A stretch of DNA of 53,697 bases from Nitrospirales bacterium (GTDB taxonomy: Bacteria; Nitrospirota; Nitrospiria; Nitrospirales; UBA8639). The stretch's first letter is position 1. Every line of letters begins with the position of its first letter. Of this stretch, positions 1,525 through 9,577 are shown piece by piece. The DNA lies in the NCBI GenBank assembly GCA_021603905.1, contig BQIU01000018.1, forward strand, positions 1 to 53,697. Direction: 5' to 3'. Both the position numbers and the translations under genes were made by a program. The notes below the pieces were generated by a model. That model saw only the letters and a list, made by a program, of their open reading frames with translations. It was not told the DNA's origin and ran no database searches.

Positions 1525-1956
1525 TTATTCGGGCATAGTGATGTCCCCGCCTTCGAGATCCATGTCTATTCCATTAAGCTCTAATTTATTACCGACGCGC
1601 CACCACTCTGGACTCACTTCAGACAAGGTGCCTTTTGATGTATAAAACTTTGCCTGCCCCACCGTGAGACGTGTGTCTTCTTCAGCTTTAAGCTCAATTA
1701 CTACATTTTTTAAGGTATTATCGACAATTTTCAGACTCTGCGGTTCAGCCGTGAGTTCAAATCGCTCTCCATCATTGGATATCCACACATTGCGCTCAAG
1801 TTTGGCTACCTGAGTCCCTGTAGGCATGTACATATCCATGGTAAGAAATATTTGACTATTGTCTTCATGAATCTCTAGACATAATTGTTGCTGCCCATGC
1901 GCGGTCACCACGCCAGTTGTATTTCTCAACACATTTGACCCAATCACAATATCCAC
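1525..1956 (-). CDS. Hypothetical protein, beta-rich, 143 residues
   Basis: I do not recognise this family. The product is acidic and soluble, with no signal peptide or membrane segment. It is made of short alternating strands (for example FELTAEPQSLKI and NVVIELKAEEDTRL), suggesting a small beta-sandwich. It contains a WW pair near residue 119 and one cysteine near residue 27. The start is a GTG at 1954-1956, supported by a good ribosome-binding site (AAAGGAG, 8 nt upstream) on the minus strand. It lies downstream of the lipid-type genes at 2085-7704 in the same direction, but 128 bp away, so membership in that operon is uncertain. Confidence 0.6.
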   Translation of the reverse strand: MDIVIGSNVLRNTTGVVTAHGQQQLCLEIHEDNSQIFLTMDMYMPTGTQVAKLERNVWISNDGERFELTAEPQSLKIVDNTLKNVVIELKAEEDTRLTVGQAKFYTSKGTLSEVSPEWWRVGNKLELNGIDMDLEGGDITMPE

Positions 1957-2084: not shown

Positions 2085-3086
2085 TCATCTCTTCGAAGCC
2101 ACGACTCCGTGGGGATGAAGCGGCTCACGTCCTTTGAGCATCAGCAGACACACTAACCCCACAAGAATCCAGAGTATTTCCCGAAGACGACGAATGAGCG
2201 CGAAGGTAATGCCAGTCACATCAGGATACCCATACGCCAGCAGAAGTAACACATATCCGCCTTCTTGCGCACCTAAACTGCCAGGAATAAAAAATGTACT
2301 TCCTTTAATAAACACGGTTAAGGCCGCAATCGATAGCGAGGTCAGCATATCCACATGAACATCTAAATAGTACAAAATGGCATAGACTTCTAGCGTCTCC
2401 AATATCCAGGCAAAGAAAAATGTGAGCAAGGCCACATAAAAGGTTCGCCGGTGCTGTGTGTAAAACGTTCTGATCGTAGAATCTAGTTCTTCAAGTGAGG
2501 CTTTCCGTTCTTCCAGAAACTTCAATCGGATTCGGCATGCCTGTAATACGCGCAGACAACCCATGGCCAACCCATATCGCTGAACCATCACAAACAACAG
2601 CATCCCAAACGCCAATAATCCAACACTGATTAACGCCGCGGTCAGATAATGGTCAGATGCACCGAGAATCCAAAATGACAGACCTATTCCCAGTAGAATA
2701 AATAAGACCTGCGCAATGGTCATGGTCGTTTTAGCCGTAATCACAGAAGCCAACCCTTCGACCAATGGGACGCCATAGGGCTTGAGAAGATAGGCCTTGA
2801 GCGGCTCGCCTCCGACATAGGCAGCCGGAGTGGTGACGTTGACAGACTCTCCCGCCATTCGGATTGCAAACAACTGAGCAAACCCGATTCGTTGGGCATG
2901 AGAACCAAGAGTCAGACGCCACCCAAGTGCCTCCAGGGTATACACCAGCAGCATGGGAAAAAGAATAACCCCAAGCGCCACGGGCCCTAATTGAGAGGCC
3001 GTATTCATGATGGAAGTTGGGCCGATGTGCCAGACAATCCCAGCCAAGGCCAAAGAGCCAAAGACCAGGAAAATGAGCTTAAGCAC
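2085..3086 (-). CDS. UPF0104 / lysylphosphatidylglycerol-synthase-type membrane protein (possible flippase)
   Basis: This is an integral membrane protein of about 333 residues with roughly seven or eight hydrophobic helices, matching the membrane domain of the UPF0104/LPG_synthase_TM family. That family is often found beside lipid-head-group genes and may move or modify lipids. The segment FIPGSLGAQEGGYVLL is the family signature. I chose the GTG at 3084-3086, which starts the protein directly at the first helix (LKLIFLVFGSLALAG) and overlaps the upstream gene by 8 bp. The longer TTG start at 3206 adds 40 residues inside the upstream gene. Neither start has a good ribosome-binding site. It is the last gene of the proposed phosphonolipid operon, so transport of the product lipid is a reasonable but unproven role. 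Confidence 0.75.
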   Translation of the reverse strand: MLKLIFLVFGSLALAGIVWHIGPTSIMNTASQLGPVALGVILFPMLLVYTLEALGWRLTLGSHAQRIGFAQLFAIRMAGESVNVTTPAAYVGGEPLKAYLLKPYGVPLVEGLASVITAKTTMTIAQVLFILLGIGLSFWILGASDHYLTAALISVGLLAFGMLLFVMVQRYGLAMGCLRVLQACRIRLKFLEERKASLEELDSTIRTFYTQHRRTFYVALLTFFFAWILETLEVYAILYYLDVHVDMLTSLSIAALTVFIKGSTFFIPGSLGAQEGGYVLLLLAYGYPDVTGITFALIRRLREILWILVGLVCLLMLKGREPLHPHGVVASKR

Positions 3087-4548
3087 GAGAGAGAAGGGAA
3101 TGGCGGAGAATCCACCCCATTGAGGCGATAAAAACCCATGAACCGATTGCCGCAATCCACAGAAACCAACCAAGGATATCCATACAGGCAAACAGCAGCA
3201 CAACAACGGAAAAATCTCGATTGGTCACATTGCCAAGCATAAACTCCATCCGCGTTCGAGTGGCTTCACCCAGACGACGCAATTCACGAGGACGGGAGCG
3301 AAGAAAGCGTGCTCGATTCACAAGCCAAAGTGAAATCATATTGGCAACAACCGCACAGGTTCCAAGAATCAGCGGCAAATTCATACCTTCCCACGACCCG
3401 TGTAGATAGGCTCCAGAAGCAATCCCCGCAAAGATCGACATATGGACGACATTATCAGCCCAAATATCTAATTCTTGACCAAAGCGTGACTCAGAAAATG
3501 TTAATCGTGCCACCTCTCCATCACAACAATCAATCACGACGGATAATTGAAAGAGTAACGCGCCAATAATACCGAATTGATAGGAGCCCAACGCAAAAAA
3601 CCCAGCCGCCATAAGTCCAATGACCATTGATGCCATGGTAATCATGTTTGGCGACACGCCAAATTTTAAAAACACGTGCGTGAAAATGCCTGATAATTTC
3701 CGATTCACATATCGATCAACGATACCGTCCATCCCTCCCTTCAAAGACTGAAGGGACTGATACAAACTGCGTTCAGCTAACTGAAGCCCATTGGGCCCTC
3801 GAATATCCTTAAATTGAGTTGTCGAACTGGGAATGGGCTGAATGATACCCTCGATCGCGGCTTGCTCTAACGCTAAACGGATCGGGTTGCCTCCACCGGC
3901 TTGTAATACGCCAGACACTCCCAACAAGCGTGACGGCAACACGACGAGATCTTCAGCAATAAACGATGCAGGCAAGGAAGGTGAGGTTGATTGCGCAGGG
4001 ATAACGTCACTATGGTCATGAAAGACGACAGTCGTCCCCAACGTACTCGGCTCAACATCTTCTTGGAAGACGACCCCAGGATTGCCCGTGTGCCGGCTTT
4101 CTTCTGACTGGCCCACAACAACCAAGACACGACCATCTGAACCAACCATTCGTAACGATTGAATCAATGAAGACGAGAACACGACATGACAACCGATAAT
4201 CAAACAGGAACCTTTGACTTCACCTGACAAGGCTTCCCAAGTTTGAGGATCCGTCGGGGGAAACTCTCGAACAGGCAACCAACGAATGGCCGCTTCAATA
4301 CGGTCATCCCCCTGGATCATCGCTCGCAACGTTTTTTCTTCTTGACCGGCTAACACCCAAATTTGCGAAATTCCAGCCCGCTGCAGCGTCAAGACCGCCC
4401 GCTGAAACAAGGTCAACCCACTGACCTTCGTTAAGATGCCAGTTCCACGTTCTCCCTGGTTCGTGCCTAACGTAAAGACGCCGGAAGAAGCCAGAAGAAT
4501 GGCTGTATCGATAACACTCGTAACAGGTTTAGGTAATGTTCCATCCAT
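3079..4548 (-). CDS. CDP-alcohol phosphatidyltransferase with an N-terminal degenerate nucleotidyltransferase-like domain
   Basis: The product has 489 residues in two parts. Residues about 275-489 are a CDP-alcohol phosphatidyltransferase with a complete DGxxAR(x8)GxxxDxxxD motif: D343, G344, A347, R348, G357, D361 and D365, followed by several membrane helices. This family displaces CMP from a CDP- or CMP-activated group to build phospholipids or phosphonolipids. Residues about 10-260 have the length and pattern of a sugar-nucleotidyltransferase Rossmann domain. The expected LAAGxGxR...PKxL loop is replaced by LLASSGVFTLG and no PKxL is visible, so it may be inactive. The architecture recalls the archaeal bifunctional inositol-phosphate cytidylyltransferase/DIPP synthase. 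Here an intact nucleotidyltransferase is encoded just upstream (102 bp), and probably supplies the CMP-activated substrate. Confidence 0.8.
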   Translation of the reverse strand: MDGTLPKPVTSVIDTAILLASSGVFTLGTNQGERGTGILTKVSGLTLFQRAVLTLQRAGISQIWVLAGQEEKTLRAMIQGDDRIEAAIRWLPVREFPPTDPQTWEALSGEVKGSCLIIGCHVVFSSSLIQSLRMVGSDGRVLVVVGQSEESRHTGNPGVVFQEDVEPSTLGTTVVFHDHSDVIPAQSTSPSLPASFIAEDLVVLPSRLLGVSGVLQAGGGNPIRLALEQAAIEGIIQPIPSSTTQFKDIRGPNGLQLAERSLYQSLQSLKGGMDGIVDRYVNRKLSGIFTHVFLKFGVSPNMITMASMVIGLMAAGFFALGSYQFGIIGALLFQLSVVIDCCDGEVARLTFSESRFGQELDIWADNVVHMSIFAGIASGAYLHGSWEGMNLPLILGTCAVVANMISLWLVNRARFLRSRPRELRRLGEATRTRMEFMLGNVTNRDFSVVVLLFACMDILGWFLWIAAIGSWVFIASMGWILRHSLLSRA

Positions 4549-4650
4549 GATGACACAAAGTTTGAGGGTTGGGCCCTATACGATGAACTTCATTATTATC
4601 GAGAACGAGGGTGTACACGCACCATCATCAAGCATAATCACGTTTCGATT

Positions 4651-5394
4651 CTAGACAACTTCCTTCCCATGACATGACAACATCGGGAGAATGTCACGTT
4701 CGGCTCTCTGCACATCTTCAGGAAAATCAATTTCGATCCAGGGCAATCCACCAATCCGCTCATATCCGACGTTCACCTTCTCAAAAAATCCTTTGAGTGC
4801 ATCTTCATATTCCATATCGAGATGCCCAGCTTCGATAGGTTCTAGCACCGATTGGAAAAGAACGGCGCTATCCGATTTGGCCACCTTTAAAAATCCCACG
4901 CCTTCTCCGGTGAAATCATACCGTGCGGGAAGCGTTTTACTGAGACTCGTCACTCGCTCATCCTGAATCGCTACCATACATTCTTCTGTTTCTTGTGACA
5001 CGGATTCATCAACGAGCAGTGCATTCGGGAACCTGGACTCGACGAGACGACGAAGAATGTCCGGATGATACAACACATCCGCATCCATAATAATGACATC
5101 GTCATCAACTTCCTTTCGCGCTTCCCACAATGAAGTAATACTTCCTCGGATGTATTGATCGTTCGTCACAAACTGAACAATACCAGGAAACGACGACGAA
5201 GCCACGGCCTCCCGAATCAGATGTTGCTGATATCCAACAACAAGCACGACGGTCTGAATACCAAGACTTGAAAGTTGCTCCAAATGTCGTGACAGGAGCG
5301 ATTGGCCGCCAACTTGGACAAGACACTTGGGACGCCCTTCAGCGACAACACCCAATCGCTTGCCAACCCCAGCCGCTAAAATGACAGCCTTCAT
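4651..5394 (-). CDS. Nucleotidyltransferase, probable phosphonate (2-aminoethylphosphonate) cytidylyltransferase
   Basis: The product is a 247-residue NTP_transferase-fold enzyme. It opens with the nucleotide-binding loop MKAVILAAGVGKRLG and then RPKCL, both intact. An acidic metal site follows (IIMDADVLYHPDIL), and a late WIEIDFPEDVQRAE segment is typical of LicC- and PntC-like cytidylyltransferases. In phosphonate pathways such enzymes make CMP-aminoethylphosphonate from CTP. That substrate is inferred from the neighbours and not from the sequence alone; phosphocholine or a sugar phosphate remain possible. The ATG overlaps the stop of the PhnW-like gene by 4 bp (ATGA), a strong sign of translational coupling. 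The CDP-alcohol phosphatidyltransferase is the next gene. Confidence 0.75.
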   Translation of the reverse strand: MKAVILAAGVGKRLGVVAEGRPKCLVQVGGQSLLSRHLEQLSSLGIQTVVLVVGYQQHLIREAVASSSFPGIVQFVTNDQYIRGSITSLWEARKEVDDDVIIMDADVLYHPDILRRLVESRFPNALLVDESVSQETEECMVAIQDERVTSLSKTLPARYDFTGEGVGFLKVAKSDSAVLFQSVLEPIEAGHLDMEYEDALKGFFEKVNVGYERIGGLPWIEIDFPEDVQRAERDILPMLSCHGKEVV

Positions 5395-6488
5395 CCGGGT
5401 TCGCCACGTTTCTTGATAATCTGTTCAAAGGCATCAAGAAATCCTGAAATATCTTTGTCTGTGAGGGCGCCAATGTTGGCCACTCGAAAAATCTTGGATT
5501 CCATATGCCCCTGCCCCGCATATATGACATACCCCTCCTGCTTCAACTGATCATGCAGCCACTCATACGACATCTGTTCTGGAAGATAAAAAGCTGTTAA
5601 GGTATTCGACTGATGTTCCGGTTCGAGAACGGCCTTAATACCAAGCGATGACATTCTCTTTCGAATAGTCGTTGCATACCCTCGAAATCGTGCACAACGC
5701 TTCGTGACACCTTCTTCCAGTAACTCGTTGAGGGCTTCCCGAAATGCATAATAGACTTGTACGGCTGGCGTAAAGGGAATACTTCCTCGCTCCTGTTCCT
5801 CGTAATAATTAGCTAGATTCAGGTACCAACTACGCTTAGGATAGGTCTTGACGCTCTTTTCCATGAATCCCTTGCGAATAATAACAAACGCTAAACCAGG
5901 AAATCCTTGGATACATTTCTGAGAAGCACTCGCCACCATATATATATGCGGGGTCGCAATATCCAATGCTTCACCTCCGAGTCCGCTAACGGAATCGACG
6001 AGAAATACACGATTGAGCCCATCAACGACTTCCGCAACTTTCTCAACCGGGTTCATGAAACCGAGTGTGGTTTCATGGTGAACCATGGCCACGGTATGAA
6101 TTTCTCGATGTTGCCGAAGCGCCAACTTGATCTTATCAAAATCAGGAGCCTGTCCCCAGTCCAGGCGCATCTCCACTCCACCAAGTCGTTGCGTTAAGGC
6201 CATGTTCCACAAACGTTGGCCATACACCCCATTGATAATCACCATGATGCGTTTACCCTGCGGTAAACTTGATAACAGAGCCGCTTCAACGGCTGCAGTC
6301 CCTGAACCGGTCAACAAAATCGCTGTATACTCAGATTCCTTGCCGGGGACAAAGGCCTGAAGCAACTTTTGTCGGATATCAGCTAAGAGCTCTGAACATT
6401 CAGACTCACGATGACAAATATCCGGTTCAAGCAGTGCTCGTCGTACTCTTTCTGAAACATTCACAGGACCAGGATTTAAGAGAATCAT
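5391..6488 (-). CDS. phnW: Class V aminotransferase, 2-aminoethylphosphonate:pyruvate aminotransferase-like
   Basis: The product is a 365-residue PLP enzyme of the PhnW branch. The N-terminus (LLNPGPVNVSERVR...) and the PLP-lysine segment SQKCIQGFPG (K191) match the NKCIQGVPG segment of known AEP transaminases in position and wording. D165 (LVDSVSG) fits the residue that contacts the PLP ring nitrogen. The family interconverts phosphonoacetaldehyde and 2-aminoethylphosphonate, using alanine or pyruvate as partner. Next to a decarboxylase and a cytidylyltransferase, the biosynthetic direction (making AEP) is more likely than catabolism, and no phosphonatase gene is nearby. It lies 96 bp downstream of the decarboxylase subunit, and in this gap a 7-mer (taacgtg) is repeated in tandem at 6502-6515. 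The length is normal for the family. Confidence 0.82.
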   Translation of the reverse strand: MILLNPGPVNVSERVRRALLEPDICHRESECSELLADIRQKLLQAFVPGKESEYTAILLTGSGTAAVEAALLSSLPQGKRIMVIINGVYGQRLWNMALTQRLGGVEMRLDWGQAPDFDKIKLALRQHREIHTVAMVHHETTLGFMNPVEKVAEVVDGLNRVFLVDSVSGLGGEALDIATPHIYMVASASQKCIQGFPGLAFVIIRKGFMEKSVKTYPKRSWYLNLANYYEEQERGSIPFTPAVQVYYAFREALNELLEEGVTKRCARFRGYATTIRKRMSSLGIKAVLEPEHQSNTLTAFYLPEQMSYEWLHDQLKQEGYVIYAGQGHMESKIFRVANIGALTDKDISGFLDAFEQIIKKRGEPG

Positions 6489-6584
6489 AGTACAACTTTC
6501 ATAACGTGTAACGTGTTGAGGGTGGGAAGTACAAAATGAAAGAAACGAATATACTTTGTCTATTCACGCCGTCGGCCTCACCGG

Positions 6585-7175
6585 TTACGGATTAGAAGAA
6601 TTGGCGGCTTTAAACCGTCGAGTCATCTCAGCAGGTTCAATCGCAACTCGATCGGCATCTTCGATTTGTTCATTGACCTTAATTAACAGAAAACTTGGGC
6701 CTTCGCTCGCCAGCATATCTTTAAACTCATACACAATGTCTTCACGTTCACGAACTCGCTCGACGTTCACATACCCAGCCGCTTTTGCCACTTTGTCAAG
6801 ATTGACTAATCGGGAATAGGTTGGTTGATTTCCAGTCGTCCCATACACCTCATTATCAAAGACGACATGCACCAAGTTCTTCGGCTTCAAGGCTCCAATG
6901 GTCGCAAGGGTTCCCATACTCATGAGCACATTGCCATCTCCATCAAAGACGACTATTGTTTTTTCTGGTTGACTCAAGGCCAATCCCAGACCGATGCCCG
7001 CCGTCGCCCCCATGGACCCAATCATGTAAAAATTGCCGTCACGGTCTCGCAATTTCTGAGCTTCGCGCGAAGGAAATCCATTGCAGATAATCAACGGTTG
7101 GTCAGTGATCAGCTCTAACAGCGCACCCATAGCCTGAGCACGGCTCTGCATCACGCCTTCTTCAGGACCAATCAT
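6585..7175 (-). CDS. Phosphonopyruvate/sulfopyruvate decarboxylase, TPP-binding (beta, ComE-like) subunit
   Basis: The product is 196 residues and equals the C-terminal half of phosphonopyruvate decarboxylase, or the ComE subunit of sulfopyruvate decarboxylase. The thiamine-diphosphate/Mg motif is clear: G79-D80-G81 followed by N108 in FDNEVYG. An upstream MIGSMGATAGIGLGLAL stretch is also typical. NGFPSRE near residue 32 matches the start of this domain in Ppd. The reaction would be decarboxylation of phosphonopyruvate to phosphonoacetaldehyde, the substrate of the PhnW-like enzyme encoded next. The sequence alone cannot separate phosphono- from sulfopyruvate specificity. The ATG at 7175 has an AAGGA element about 9 nt upstream, and the gene begins 31 bp after the partner subunit. 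Confidence 0.8.
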   Translation of the reverse strand: MIGPEEGVMQSRAQAMGALLELITDQPLIICNGFPSREAQKLRDRDGNFYMIGSMGATAGIGLGLALSQPEKTIVVFDGDGNVLMSMGTLATIGALKPKNLVHVVFDNEVYGTTGNQPTYSRLVNLDKVAKAAGYVNVERVREREDIVYEFKDMLASEGPSFLLIKVNEQIEDADRVAIEPAEMTRRFKAANSSNP

Positions 7176-7206
7176 GTGTTAAGTCCTTCTGTTTTCAACA
7201 TTTCCA

Positions 7207-7704
7207 TCATGGCTGTACGGTTTTGACAATGCCTTTTTTCAACAACAAAGCAAGCGGAATTCGTTGCTCCATGAACGTGGTGGCCGTCCATTTCAGGTCA
7301 TCCACCATGGTTTCAGCCGATAACGTTCGGTGGGGAACTTTGACGGTATCTAACAACTGCGTCATGGTCTCTCCCATGACCAGATGCTCTGGAGCATCTT
7401 TCCCCTCGAAACCACGCCAGGAAATGAGGAGGACACAAGGAATTCGGTAAATCAGATTGAGTGATTCAAGGATATTGAGAGAATTGCCTAATCCGGAATT
7501 TTGCATGAGGACCGCGGGAATTTTCCCCCCAAGATAGGCTCCGGCCGCCATTGCCACCGCTTCATCTTCACGAACGGCAGGGACATACAAGCGCGCTTCA
7601 GTCAGCGCCGCAATGATACCGCCCAAAATGGTATCGGGAACTCCCGTGAAAAAATCTATACCGATATCTTGTAACGCTCGAACAAAGTCGTCGCTGTCAA
7701 TCAT
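7207..7704 (-). CDS. Phosphonopyruvate/sulfopyruvate decarboxylase, PYR-domain (alpha, ComD-like) subunit
   Basis: The product is 165 residues and corresponds to the N-terminal pyrimidine-binding (PYR) half of the TPP-dependent decarboxylase. It contains FTGVPDTIL near residue 19, an EDEAVAMAAGAYLGG stretch with the conserved Glu that activates TPP, and MQNSGLGNSLN, a hallmark of Ppd and ComD proteins. In most phosphonate producers Ppd is one chain of about 380 residues. Here the two halves are separate genes 31 bp apart, as in archaeal ComD/ComE. It is the first gene of the proposed phosphonolipid operon. The weak A-rich sequence upstream of the ATG does not form a strong ribosome-binding site. 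Confidence 0.8.
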   Translation of the reverse strand: MIDSDDFVRALQDIGIDFFTGVPDTILGGIIAALTEARLYVPAVREDEAVAMAAGAYLGGKIPAVLMQNSGLGNSLNILESLNLIYRIPCVLLISWRGFEGKDAPEHLVMGETMTQLLDTVKVPHRTLSAETMVDDLKWTATTFMEQRIPLALLLKKGIVKTVQP

Positions 7705-7976: not shown

Positions 7977-8378
7977 ATGAAATCCACACGTCGCAAAGCC
8001 GCGGCCCGTTACACTGCAGAACATGCGAAAAGTGGCTTACGAACTAAGCTACCATCAATTGAAACATGGCCGAATCAGTACCAAGGCTATGAAATTACCA
8101 TTGAAATTCCTGAGTACACCGCCATTTGTCCCAAAACGGGATTACCAGATTTCGGCATGATCCGACTGAGTTATACTCCAGATCAATCCTGTCTCGAGTT
8201 AAAATCTCTCAAAGAGTATATTCATGCCTATCGAAATCTTGGTATTTTCTACGAAAATGCCGTGAATCGCATTCTGGAGGACCTCGTGAAAGCCTGCCAT
8301 CCCATCTCTGCCACCGTCACAGGTGAATTTACCGCCCGTGGAGGACTCAGCAGCACCATTCACGCCTCGTACCCGTAA
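7977..8378 (+). CDS. queF: NADPH-dependent 7-cyano-7-deazaguanine reductase
   Basis: QueF reduces preQ0 to preQ1 in the synthesis of queuosine, a modified base of tRNA anticodons. The 133-residue product is the short, single-domain form of the enzyme. C51 in AICPKTGLPDFG is the catalytic cysteine that forms the thioimide, and D58 is the conserved acid. The segment ELKSLKEYIHAYRNLGIFYEN carries the QueF NADPH-binding signature. The ATG at 7977 follows a modest GGGAG element at 7965-7969. The gene stands alone on the plus strand between two minus-strand units, and no other queuosine genes are in the window. I looked for a preQ1 riboswitch in its leader and did not find a convincing one. Confidence 0.93.
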   Translation: MKSTRRKAAARYTAEHAKSGLRTKLPSIETWPNQYQGYEITIEIPEYTAICPKTGLPDFGMIRLSYTPDQSCLELKSLKEYIHAYRNLGIFYENAVNRILEDLVKACHPISATVTGEFTARGGLSSTIHASYP

Positions 8379-8400
8379 CTTCTCCCAGTATTTCAGACGA

Positions 8401-8436
8401 AAGGATCGGTGAGTCGAGAAGGATCGGTGAGTCGAG
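8401..8436. repeat. Tandem 18-bp repeat, two copies
   Basis: The 18-mer aaggatcggtgagtcgag occurs twice back to back, at 8401-8418 and 8419-8436. It lies in the short space between the ends of two convergent genes (queF and the DegT-type gene). Its role is unknown and replication slippage is the simplest origin. Confidence 0.9.
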
Positions 8437-8449
8437 AACGAACAACCTC

Positions 8450-9577
8450 TCACGCAGGTGAAGAAACCACAAAAAACTGCTTAATGGTCTGCACAACATA
8501 TTCGATCTGTTCTGTTGTCAGTTCTGAATATATGGGAAGGGAGAGGACCTCTTGAGCGGCCTGCTCAGAAACTGGAAGTTGCCCTTTTTGATAACCCAAG
8601 ACTTGGTAACATTCTTGAAGATGGAGCGGGACGGGATAATAAATTTTATTGCCAATGCCCTGTTCGGTCAGGTAAGCGCTGAGTTGATCGCGTTTCGGGG
8701 TTCGAATCGTATATTGGTTATAAACATGATAATTGGCCGGGTCAGTCACGGGCAGGGTGATCACGTCTAAGAGACCAGCCTCACCAAAGAGACGCTCATA
8801 GGCTTGAGCATTGGCGCGACGTTTTTCGGTCCATTGCTCAAGATAGGCGAGTTTGACCTGAAGAACGGCCGCCTGCAAGGCATCAAGCCGGCTGTTCATG
8901 CCAATGGTATGATGATGATAGTCAGATCGACTTCCATGAACACGGAGAGCTCGTAACCGATCGGCGATGTTAGCATCATGGGTGGTCACCAATCCGCCAT
9001 CCCCAAACCCACCAAGGTTTTTCGAGGGGAAAAAGCTGAAACAGCCCGTTGTTCCCAATCCACCAGCCCGCACACCATTTCGCGTAGCCCCAATCGCCTG
9101 ACACGCATCTTCGATAACCGGCACGCCACGCTCAGCTGCCAGGTAGGAGATTTTTTCCATTTCGGCACATTGGCCAAACAAATGGACAGGAAGAATTGCT
9201 TTGGTCCGCTCAGTGAGACGATCGGCCAATTGCTCAGGATCCATATTCAATGAACCTGCTTGAATATCAACAAATACCGGAATGGCTTGTAGTCGTGAAA
9301 TCACTCCTGCTGTGGAAAAAAAGGTAAACGGCACCGTAAGAATTTCGTCCCCGGGCGTAACGCCTAAAGCCATCAGCGAGAGGAGTAACGCATCACTGCC
9401 AGAAGCGACACCCACAGCGTGACCAGTCCCGACGTACTTCCCAAGGTCTTGCTCTAGACGCTCCACTCGTGGCCCAAGGACAAACCCTTGCTCGTCACAC
9501 ACGTCTTCTATTGAAGCAAGCACCTCGTGGCGAATCGATTGAAATTGAGCTTTCAAATCGAGAAGTGGAACGTTCAT
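8450..9577 (-). CDS. DegT/DnrJ/EryC1/StrS family sugar aminotransferase
   Basis: This is a 375-residue PLP aminotransferase of the fold-type I DegT/StrS group, which transfers an amino group to a nucleotide-linked keto-sugar for surface polysaccharides. Visible features are the N-terminal MNVPLLDLKAQ, the VASGSDALLLSL phosphate-binding loop near residue 60, D157 in VIEDACQAIGA, and the PLP lysine K186 in FFPSKNLGG. The ending is also typical, with a YYPVPLHLQ segment. It most resembles WbpE-like enzymes that aminate UDP-3-keto sugars, but no other nucleotide-sugar genes flank it, so the exact sugar is unknown. The ATG at 9577 has an AAAGG element upstream. Confidence 0.88.
   Translation of the reverse strand: MNVPLLDLKAQFQSIRHEVLASIEDVCDEQGFVLGPRVERLEQDLGKYVGTGHAVGVASGSDALLLSLMALGVTPGDEILTVPFTFFSTAGVISRLQAIPVFVDIQAGSLNMDPEQLADRLTERTKAILPVHLFGQCAEMEKISYLAAERGVPVIEDACQAIGATRNGVRAGGLGTTGCFSFFPSKNLGGFGDGGLVTTHDANIADRLRALRVHGSRSDYHHHTIGMNSRLDALQAAVLQVKLAYLEQWTEKRRANAQAYERLFGEAGLLDVITLPVTDPANYHVYNQYTIRTPKRDQLSAYLTEQGIGNKIYYPVPLHLQECYQVLGYQKGQLPVSEQAAQEVLSLPIYSELTTEQIEYVVQTIKQFFVVSSPA

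Follow-up and report, generated by a model that had tools for sequence, protein, structure and literature searches.

We analysed a 53,697-nucleotide contig (BQIU01000018.1, assembly GCA_021603905.1) of a Nitrospirales bacterium, hereafter the window, and identified on its minus strand (7704-2085) a six-gene operon which probably supplies the later steps of a split phosphonate pathway ending in 2-aminoethylphosphonate (AEP) on a lipid. A gene for the founding enzyme, phosphoenolpyruvate (PEP) mutase, lies on another contig of the same genome. The evidence comprises the family identity of the proteins, the presence of this PEP mutase, conservation and co-loss across the order, and retained catalytic motifs. 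Synthesis of AEP is well supported by these sequences, and we infer from them which substrates the enzymes use, that AEP passes to a lipid, which lipid accepts it and what the membrane protein does. The original prediction for this DNA described six co-directional genes; all six open reading frames (ORFs) were found, and Pfam and NCBIfam results for their proteins match the domain names that it gave. These genes, and a possible seventh, are as follows (aa, amino acids; TPP, thiamine pyrophosphate; PLP, pyridoxal phosphate):

7207..7704, minus strand: ppdA, 165 aa, alpha part, the TPP-binding N-terminal half of a predicted two-part phosphonopyruvate decarboxylase (PF02776)
6585..7175, minus strand: ppdB, 196 aa, beta part, the TPP-binding C-terminal half (PF02775)
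5391..6488, minus strand: aepZ, 365 aa, predicted AEP aminotransferase, class V, of the AepZ/PhnW kind, with the PLP lysine at residue 191
4651..5394, minus strand: predicted PntC-like AEP cytidylyltransferase, 247 aa, a MobA/LicC-like nucleotidyltransferase with GxGxR and PK intact (PF12804)
3079..4548, minus strand: predicted CDP-alcohol phosphotransferase, 489 aa, C-terminal domain at about 282-489 (PF01066 at 299-427)
2085..3206, minus strand: flippase-like membrane protein, LPG-synthase-TM / HpnL-like (PF03706, 1.6e-37)
1525..1956, minus strand: conserved hypothetical protein, 143 aa, a possible seventh gene in the window's family

In the proposed pathway, the PEP mutase from contig C14, which is fused to a degenerate PntC domain, would convert PEP to phosphonopyruvate, PpdA and PpdB would decarboxylate this to phosphonoacetaldehyde, and AepZ would aminate phosphonoacetaldehyde to AEP. 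The PntC-like enzyme would then convert AEP to CMP-AEP, the CDP-alcohol phosphotransferase would move AEP to a lipid hydroxyl, most likely that of diacylglycerol, and the flippase-like protein would move or expose the product. The genes had been read in this way before, and their families, solved relatives, co-occurrence and pattern of loss uphold the reading from phosphonopyruvate through AEP and CMP-AEP to a membrane acceptor, although they do not extend to the acceptor itself.

PEP mutase is encoded elsewhere in the genome

The original prediction noted that the window lacks PEP mutase and left two possibilities, namely a PEP mutase encoded elsewhere or another source of the precursor. A search of the whole assembly with PF13714 gave two matches only, on contigs C14 and C36 (the window is contig C18). 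The C14 gene (G000:C14:29145-30749) encodes a canonical PEP mutase with the loop EDKLFPKTNS; the absence of PEP mutase from the organism is therefore rejected, and another source of the precursor is unneeded. The C36 match was rejected as a PEP mutase, being panB, which encodes ketopantoate hydroxymethyltransferase. Residues 7-277 of the 535-aa C14 protein match the PEP mutase model TIGR02320 at 384 bits against a cut-off of 319.55, and the best solved relative is 1m1b (E = 5.7e-126), which we take to be the Mytilus PEP mutase. The second half of the protein is a PntC-like nucleotidyltransferase domain. Because GxGxR is absent from this domain in all 13 aligned fusions, which include both of the classes described below (e.g. 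L001:646-2253), the fused domain may be regulatory or structural. Of the two PntC-like domains in the genome, only the one encoded in the window looks intact by its motifs. In another genome (G005) the operon is without the cytidylyltransferase gene, and a PntC-like gene, 53% identical to that of the window, lies beside pepM on a different contig.

The neighbours of pepM on C14 resemble secA and complex I genes (judged by eye), and comparison of the window proteins with the corresponding stretches of G002 and G003 revealed no second phosphonate gene near pepM. Since the source assembly is a draft of 203 contigs with a contamination estimate of 7.5%, the C14 gene could in principle be a contaminant of a composite genome whose organism has no PEP mutase of its own. 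We regard the likelihood of this as close to negligible, because three genomes of the same genus hold both loci at similar identity to ours (operon transferase and PEP mutase: G004, 96 and 95%; G003, 85 and 93%; G002, 81 and 89%), and a secA-like gene adjoins pepM in G002 and G003 as it does here.

Conservation and co-loss within the Nitrospirales

A search with an alignment of the CDP-alcohol phosphotransferase (the transferase) gave 206 confirmed loci, the best 80 of which were retained as named loci. By title, 78 of these best 80 belong to Nitrospira, Nitrospiraceae, Nitrospirales, Nitrospirae or Nitrospirota, one to Nitrospinota (L121) and one to Nitrosospira (L138), and the nearest relative among them is Nitrospirales bacterium NPIRA04 (96%). 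The cultured N. defluvii is represented among the named loci by L137. Around the transferase gene of the 80 named loci, some of which are interrupted by contig ends, we found ppdA in 69, ppdB in 71, aepZ in 73, the cytidylyltransferase gene in 75 and the flippase gene in 79. Because the same genes recur so consistently, the gene order of the operon is not due to chance.

Among 395 genomes of the phylum, the transferase alignment matched 153 at 1e-30, and 136 of these fall within the order. The 17 matching genomes outside it score only 2.3e-32 to 3.6e-69, and there the search covered the transferase alone of the six operon genes. At cut-offs of our own choosing (best E-value 1e-45 for PEP mutase and 1e-40 for the transferase), 199 of 235 genomes of the order have the transferase together with a strong PEP-mutase match, 12 have neither, 15 the transferase only and nine PEP mutase only (Fisher 6.4e-8, uncorrected for relatedness). 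In these counts G044 and G222 were by elimination treated as lacking a match, and G036 was taken as transferase-bearing although its locus gene has the N-terminal domain only. The 153 better genomes gave 138 with both, eight with neither, five with the transferase only and two with PEP mutase only (Fisher 8.8e-9, likewise uncorrected). The transferase and PEP mutase tend to disappear together.

Two classes of PEP-mutase fusion

We also found that the PEP-mutase fusions fall into two classes. Class I, to which the window's genome belongs, has the loop EDKxFPKTNSF in all 46 loci read, some of which are the same gene counted twice, and class II has EDNVxPKRCSF in place of EDKxxxxxNS in all 14 read. 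The class II loop appears to combine features of the mutase loop EDKxFPKTNS with those of the methylisocitrate-lyase loop EDQxxPKRCGH, with a lyase-like Cys aligned where the mutase has Asn, and the reaction of class II is putative. The three class II proteins that were scored fall under the TIGR02320 cut-off (269.4, 287.1 and 275.7 bits). Class II occurs in about 63 of 208 matching genomes, replacing the canonical class there; this count was drawn from a gap in the scores and takes in fragments or intermediates (G050, G054, G214), and the 208 include at least one lyase-type protein (G036). In the examples L076:11807-13516, L199:10798-12507 and L133:1837-3519, the class II gene is divergent from ppdA.

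The two classes meet in one genome rarely if ever, because a second match at 1e-60 turned up in only five of the 208 genomes; in G050 the two matches are pieces of a single gene, and in the other four the additional matches were seen in part only. Distances could be taken for genomes with both positions listed, which are 50 of the about 63 with class II and 41 with class I. The class II gene starts less than 10 kb from the transferase gene in 36 of the 50, lies farther away on the same contig in two and is on a different contig in 12, whereas none of the 15 class I genes that share a contig with the operon is within 10 kb of it, and another 26 are on separate contigs. The earlier expectation that pepM normally lies in such clusters thus fails for the window's genome (C14 versus C18) and, among the relatives checked, holds only for those with class II. 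This pattern suggests that a linked founder gene was replaced by an unlinked one and hence that the two share a job, as does the way in which one class stands in for the other in different genomes.

It is possible, if somewhat doubtful, that phosphonolipid synthesis is core to the order Nitrospirales and that the carbon-phosphorus (C-P) bond in about 63 genomes owes its origin to a second, so far unrecognised class of PEP mutase. If this is true, motif surveys demanding EDKxxxxxNS would miss class II. An earlier survey accepted only sequences with this motif; among those that it excluded, 22 were fused to other domains (PMC6697681).

Decarboxylase and aminotransferase

PpdA scores 129.8 bits on TIGR03297, the model of one-piece phosphonopyruvate decarboxylase, over model positions 1-156 and 120.8 bits on TIGR03845, and PpdB scores 171.1 bits on TIGR03297 and 180.7 bits on TIGR03846 (sulfopyruvate decarboxylase beta). 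The TIGR03297 cut-off of 312.5 is meant for the one-piece protein, and the two halves are in a near tie with the ComDE models; hidden Markov model (HMM) scores thus did not separate phosphonopyruvate from sulfopyruvate decarboxylase for PpdA and PpdB. The Glu of the REDEA motif of PpdA is present in 102 of 103 loci. The best PDB match of PpdB is 9iz3 (E = 7.3e-29), the beta part of RhiEF, a phosphonopyruvate decarboxylase heterodimer that acts in rhizocticin biosynthesis (PDB 9iz3/9iz4, PMC12141560). Both are two-part TPP enzymes; however, RhiEF serves an antifungal peptide and not a surface pathway, and the substrate of PpdAB is predicted from sequence. A one-piece phosphonopyruvate decarboxylase over the family cut-off adjoins pepM in six of 59 genomes, the window's genome counted (e.g. 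L092:6829-7995, L103:9741-10919 and L088:1245-2393), and one of the six, G053, has the two-part enzyme too.

AepZ scores 349.8 bits on TIGR03301 against a cut-off of 360.8, and its best PDB match is 1m32, PhnW (E = 9e-55). Its Lys191 aligns with the lysine in SANKCIQG of PhnW, which we take to be the PLP-holding residue. AepZ was read in 112 loci including the window; 103 of them retain this lysine, and the other nine have Asp (4), Gly (2), Glu, Val or Ala in its place. Named loci make up 73 of the 112; all of these have the lysine, few of them with a known PEP-mutase status, and some repeat loci of the genomes that carry a handle. All nine lysine-less copies are in genomes without a detected PEP-mutase fusion of class I or II. 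Among the handle genomes, those with a fusion keep the lysine in 22 of 22 read, and the 16 without a detected fusion have lost it in nine and kept it in seven (counts uncorrected for relatedness).

Eight of the nine lysine-less loci are without cytidylyltransferase, transferase and flippase and keep the reading frames of ppdA, ppdB and aepZ, one of the eight (L196) ending 0.6 kb past aepZ; the ninth (G036) is without the cytidylyltransferase and has a transferase gene with just the N-terminal domain. The aminotransferase of this orphan trio (L184:6903-9334, L192-L198; eight genomes) has an intact frame and 60-64% identity, and a long ORF beside the trio resembles a CstA-type transporter (judged by eye). 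The PEP-mutase-family matches in G036, G045, G071 and G072 were rejected as mutases, since they are of the methylisocitrate-lyase type (EDQxxPK[RK]CGH); two of these genomes, G036 and G072, are lysine-less.

Activation, transfer and the membrane protein

The cytidylyltransferase gene overlaps aepZ by four bases, and the GxGxR and PK motifs of its product are intact in the other nine aligned rows as well as in the window. The best PDB match of its profile is 6pd1, the PntC-AEPT of Treponema denticola (E = 1e-28), and LicC (1jyk) matches at 3.1e-19. The T. denticola PntC prefers AEP in vitro, and its Glu196 and Glu104 are positioned for contact with the amine of AEP; their equivalents in LicC are Asp192 and Asp105 (PMC6697681). 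In the window protein an invariant Glu197 aligns with Glu196, and the second position is Asp104, as in LicC; by this alignment, half of the AEP-amine contact signature is PntC-like.

In the CDP-alcohol protein, D340-D343-G344-A347-R348-G357-D361-D365 are invariant in 14 of 14 aligned rows, which gives the complete DxxDGxxAR(x8)GxxxDxxxD motif that we take to be catalytic in CDP-alcohol phosphotransferases. This protein also bears a second, degenerate nucleotidyltransferase-fold domain at its N-terminus, overlooked in the original prediction, which reads LLASSGVF where the cytidylyltransferase motif reads LAAGVGKRL and has neither GxGxR nor PK. Its AlphaFold model (pLDDT 78, pTM 0.72) matches IPCT-DIPPS (4mnd, TMt 0.76) and AF2299. 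The Archaeoglobus proteins IPCT-DIPPS and AF2299 (4o6m) likewise carry a nucleotidyltransferase-fold domain ahead of a CDP-alcohol phosphotransferase domain, with a whole-chain fold match; the window system differs from IPCT-DIPPS in the lost motifs of its N-terminal domain and in the separate intact cytidylyltransferase encoded next door. The cytidylyltransferase and CDP-alcohol proteins are only weakly similar to the IPCT-DIPPS model NF041135 (98.2 and 79.3 bits against a cut-off of 580). A functional analogy exists with the Kennedy pathway (CDP-ethanolamine route), in which CTP activates a small amino-phospho headgroup that a CDP-alcohol phosphotransferase then transfers, but the headgroup here would be a phosphonate.

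The flippase-like protein scores 153.1 bits on TIGR03476 (cut-off 195.65) and 89.3 bits on TIGR00374 (cut-off 43.2), and is closest to HpnL, of the hopanoid-associated subfamily, but under the HpnL cut-off. The upstream-most start listed for its ORF is a TTG inside the preceding gene; the true start is probably further in, near 3080, because the NCBIfam match begins only at residue 43. Directly 3' of the flippase gene in 19 of the 80 named loci is the gene of the 143-aa protein (1525-1956 in the window), for which Pfam and NCBIfam searches gave no match. Upstream of the operon (7977-9577) lie queF on the plus strand and a DegT-type aminotransferase gene on the minus strand, kept in 22 and 19 of the 80 named loci, respectively.

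Alternative explanations

Several observations weigh against a pathway that ends with AEP on a lipid. No computation here identifies the acceptor, and the closest solved relatives of the CDP-alcohol enzyme include inositol-phosphate enzymes. AepZ, PpdA and PpdB all score too low for the cut-offs of the curated equivalog models, and the score of PpdB is slightly higher on the sulfopyruvate decarboxylase beta model than on the phosphonopyruvate model. The transferase occurs without a strong PEP-mutase match in the 15 genomes counted above, five of them in the better set, PEP mutase occurs without the transferase in nine, and PpdA and PpdB persist in genomes without PEP mutase. AepZ was read in eight of the 15 transferase-only genomes and keeps its lysine in seven, the exception being G036. 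These seven operon-bearing genomes are 66 to 95% complete, and a missing contig is the simplest account of them, although it is indistinguishable from another precursor.

We consider it unlikely, though well worth weighing, that AEP is made and activated as proposed but is passed to a glycan, a polyprenol or a hopanoid-type lipid instead of diacylglycerol. Glycans or lipids are the presumed targets of the PntC enzymes characterised so far (PMC6697681), and the nearness of the membrane protein to HpnL would fit, its score notwithstanding; against this, the operon encodes a CDP-alcohol phosphotransferase whose catalytic motif is complete, and neither a glycosyltransferase nor a LicD-like gene is among its six genes. 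The reading in which PpdAB and AepZ act on sulfur analogues, from sulfopyruvate through sulfoacetaldehyde to taurine, free or in a lipid, is disfavoured and has in our view only a slim chance of being right. It would explain the score of PpdB and the survival of the trio without PEP mutase, and ComDE sulfopyruvate decarboxylase shares the two-part architecture and similar HMM scores. However, the context in the window is one of phosphonate genes, and ComA was found in none of the 13 genomes searched, our own included, in a search that detected the control in B. subtilis and M. jannaschii and did not cover cysteate supply. Moreover, the nine fusion-less genomes with a shrunken locus have no PLP lysine in the aminotransferase, so that no taurine by transamination is expected there, and PEP-mutase-like fusions are linked to the operon and share its distribution. 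We favour phosphonate over the sulfur analogue because linkage, co-loss and the lysine pattern do so. It is just as improbable that the cytidylyltransferase and the CDP-alcohol protein together produce an inositol or phosphocholine compound and only happen to be encoded beside the AEP genes, as the weak similarity of both proteins to NF041135 and the fold match to IPCT-DIPPS might suggest. The best solved match of the cytidylyltransferase profile is a PntC fused to an AEP aminotransferase, Glu197 is invariant at the site where LicC has Asp, even if Asp104 is LicC-like, and the co-loss of transferase and PEP mutase also speaks for the phosphonate pathway.

Relation to known systems and significance

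Phosphonyl tailoring (Pnt) gene clusters are known in T. denticola, Atopobium rimae and Olsenella uli, and fused and separate nucleotidyltransferases around PEP mutase, as well as predicted phosphonolipid clusters, have already been described (PMC6697681). The system found here resembles the Pnt clusters, as that source presents them, in its PEP mutase-nucleotidyltransferase fusion, second separate PntC, Ppd and AEP aminotransferase, with AEP predicted to be activated with CMP. It differs in that its genes are split over two loci, its decarboxylase is in two parts, and the fused PntC domain in the window's genome is without GxGxR. In addition, transfer would be by a CDP-alcohol phosphotransferase, where PMC6697681 names LicD-like phosphotransferases or glycosyltransferases.

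In the open-licence literature we found no paper combining 'Nitrospira' and 'phosphonopyruvate', and among the matches listed, co-mentions of 'aminoethylphosphonate' included, no title concerned phosphonate synthesis in Nitrospira. The wider interest of the operon lies in its conservation across the order and in the class II enzymes found in relatives, which would make the question of which residues define a PEP mutase directly testable. Nitrospira-type bacteria are major nitrite oxidisers. If the reading is true, C-P lipids throughout the order would supply soils, sediments, wastewater and the sea with phosphonates on a large scale that has gone unnoticed, and would provide a lipid marker for the Nitrospirales. 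For the bacteria themselves, C-P lipids might reduce the need for phosphate esters or withstand phosphatases on the cell surface.

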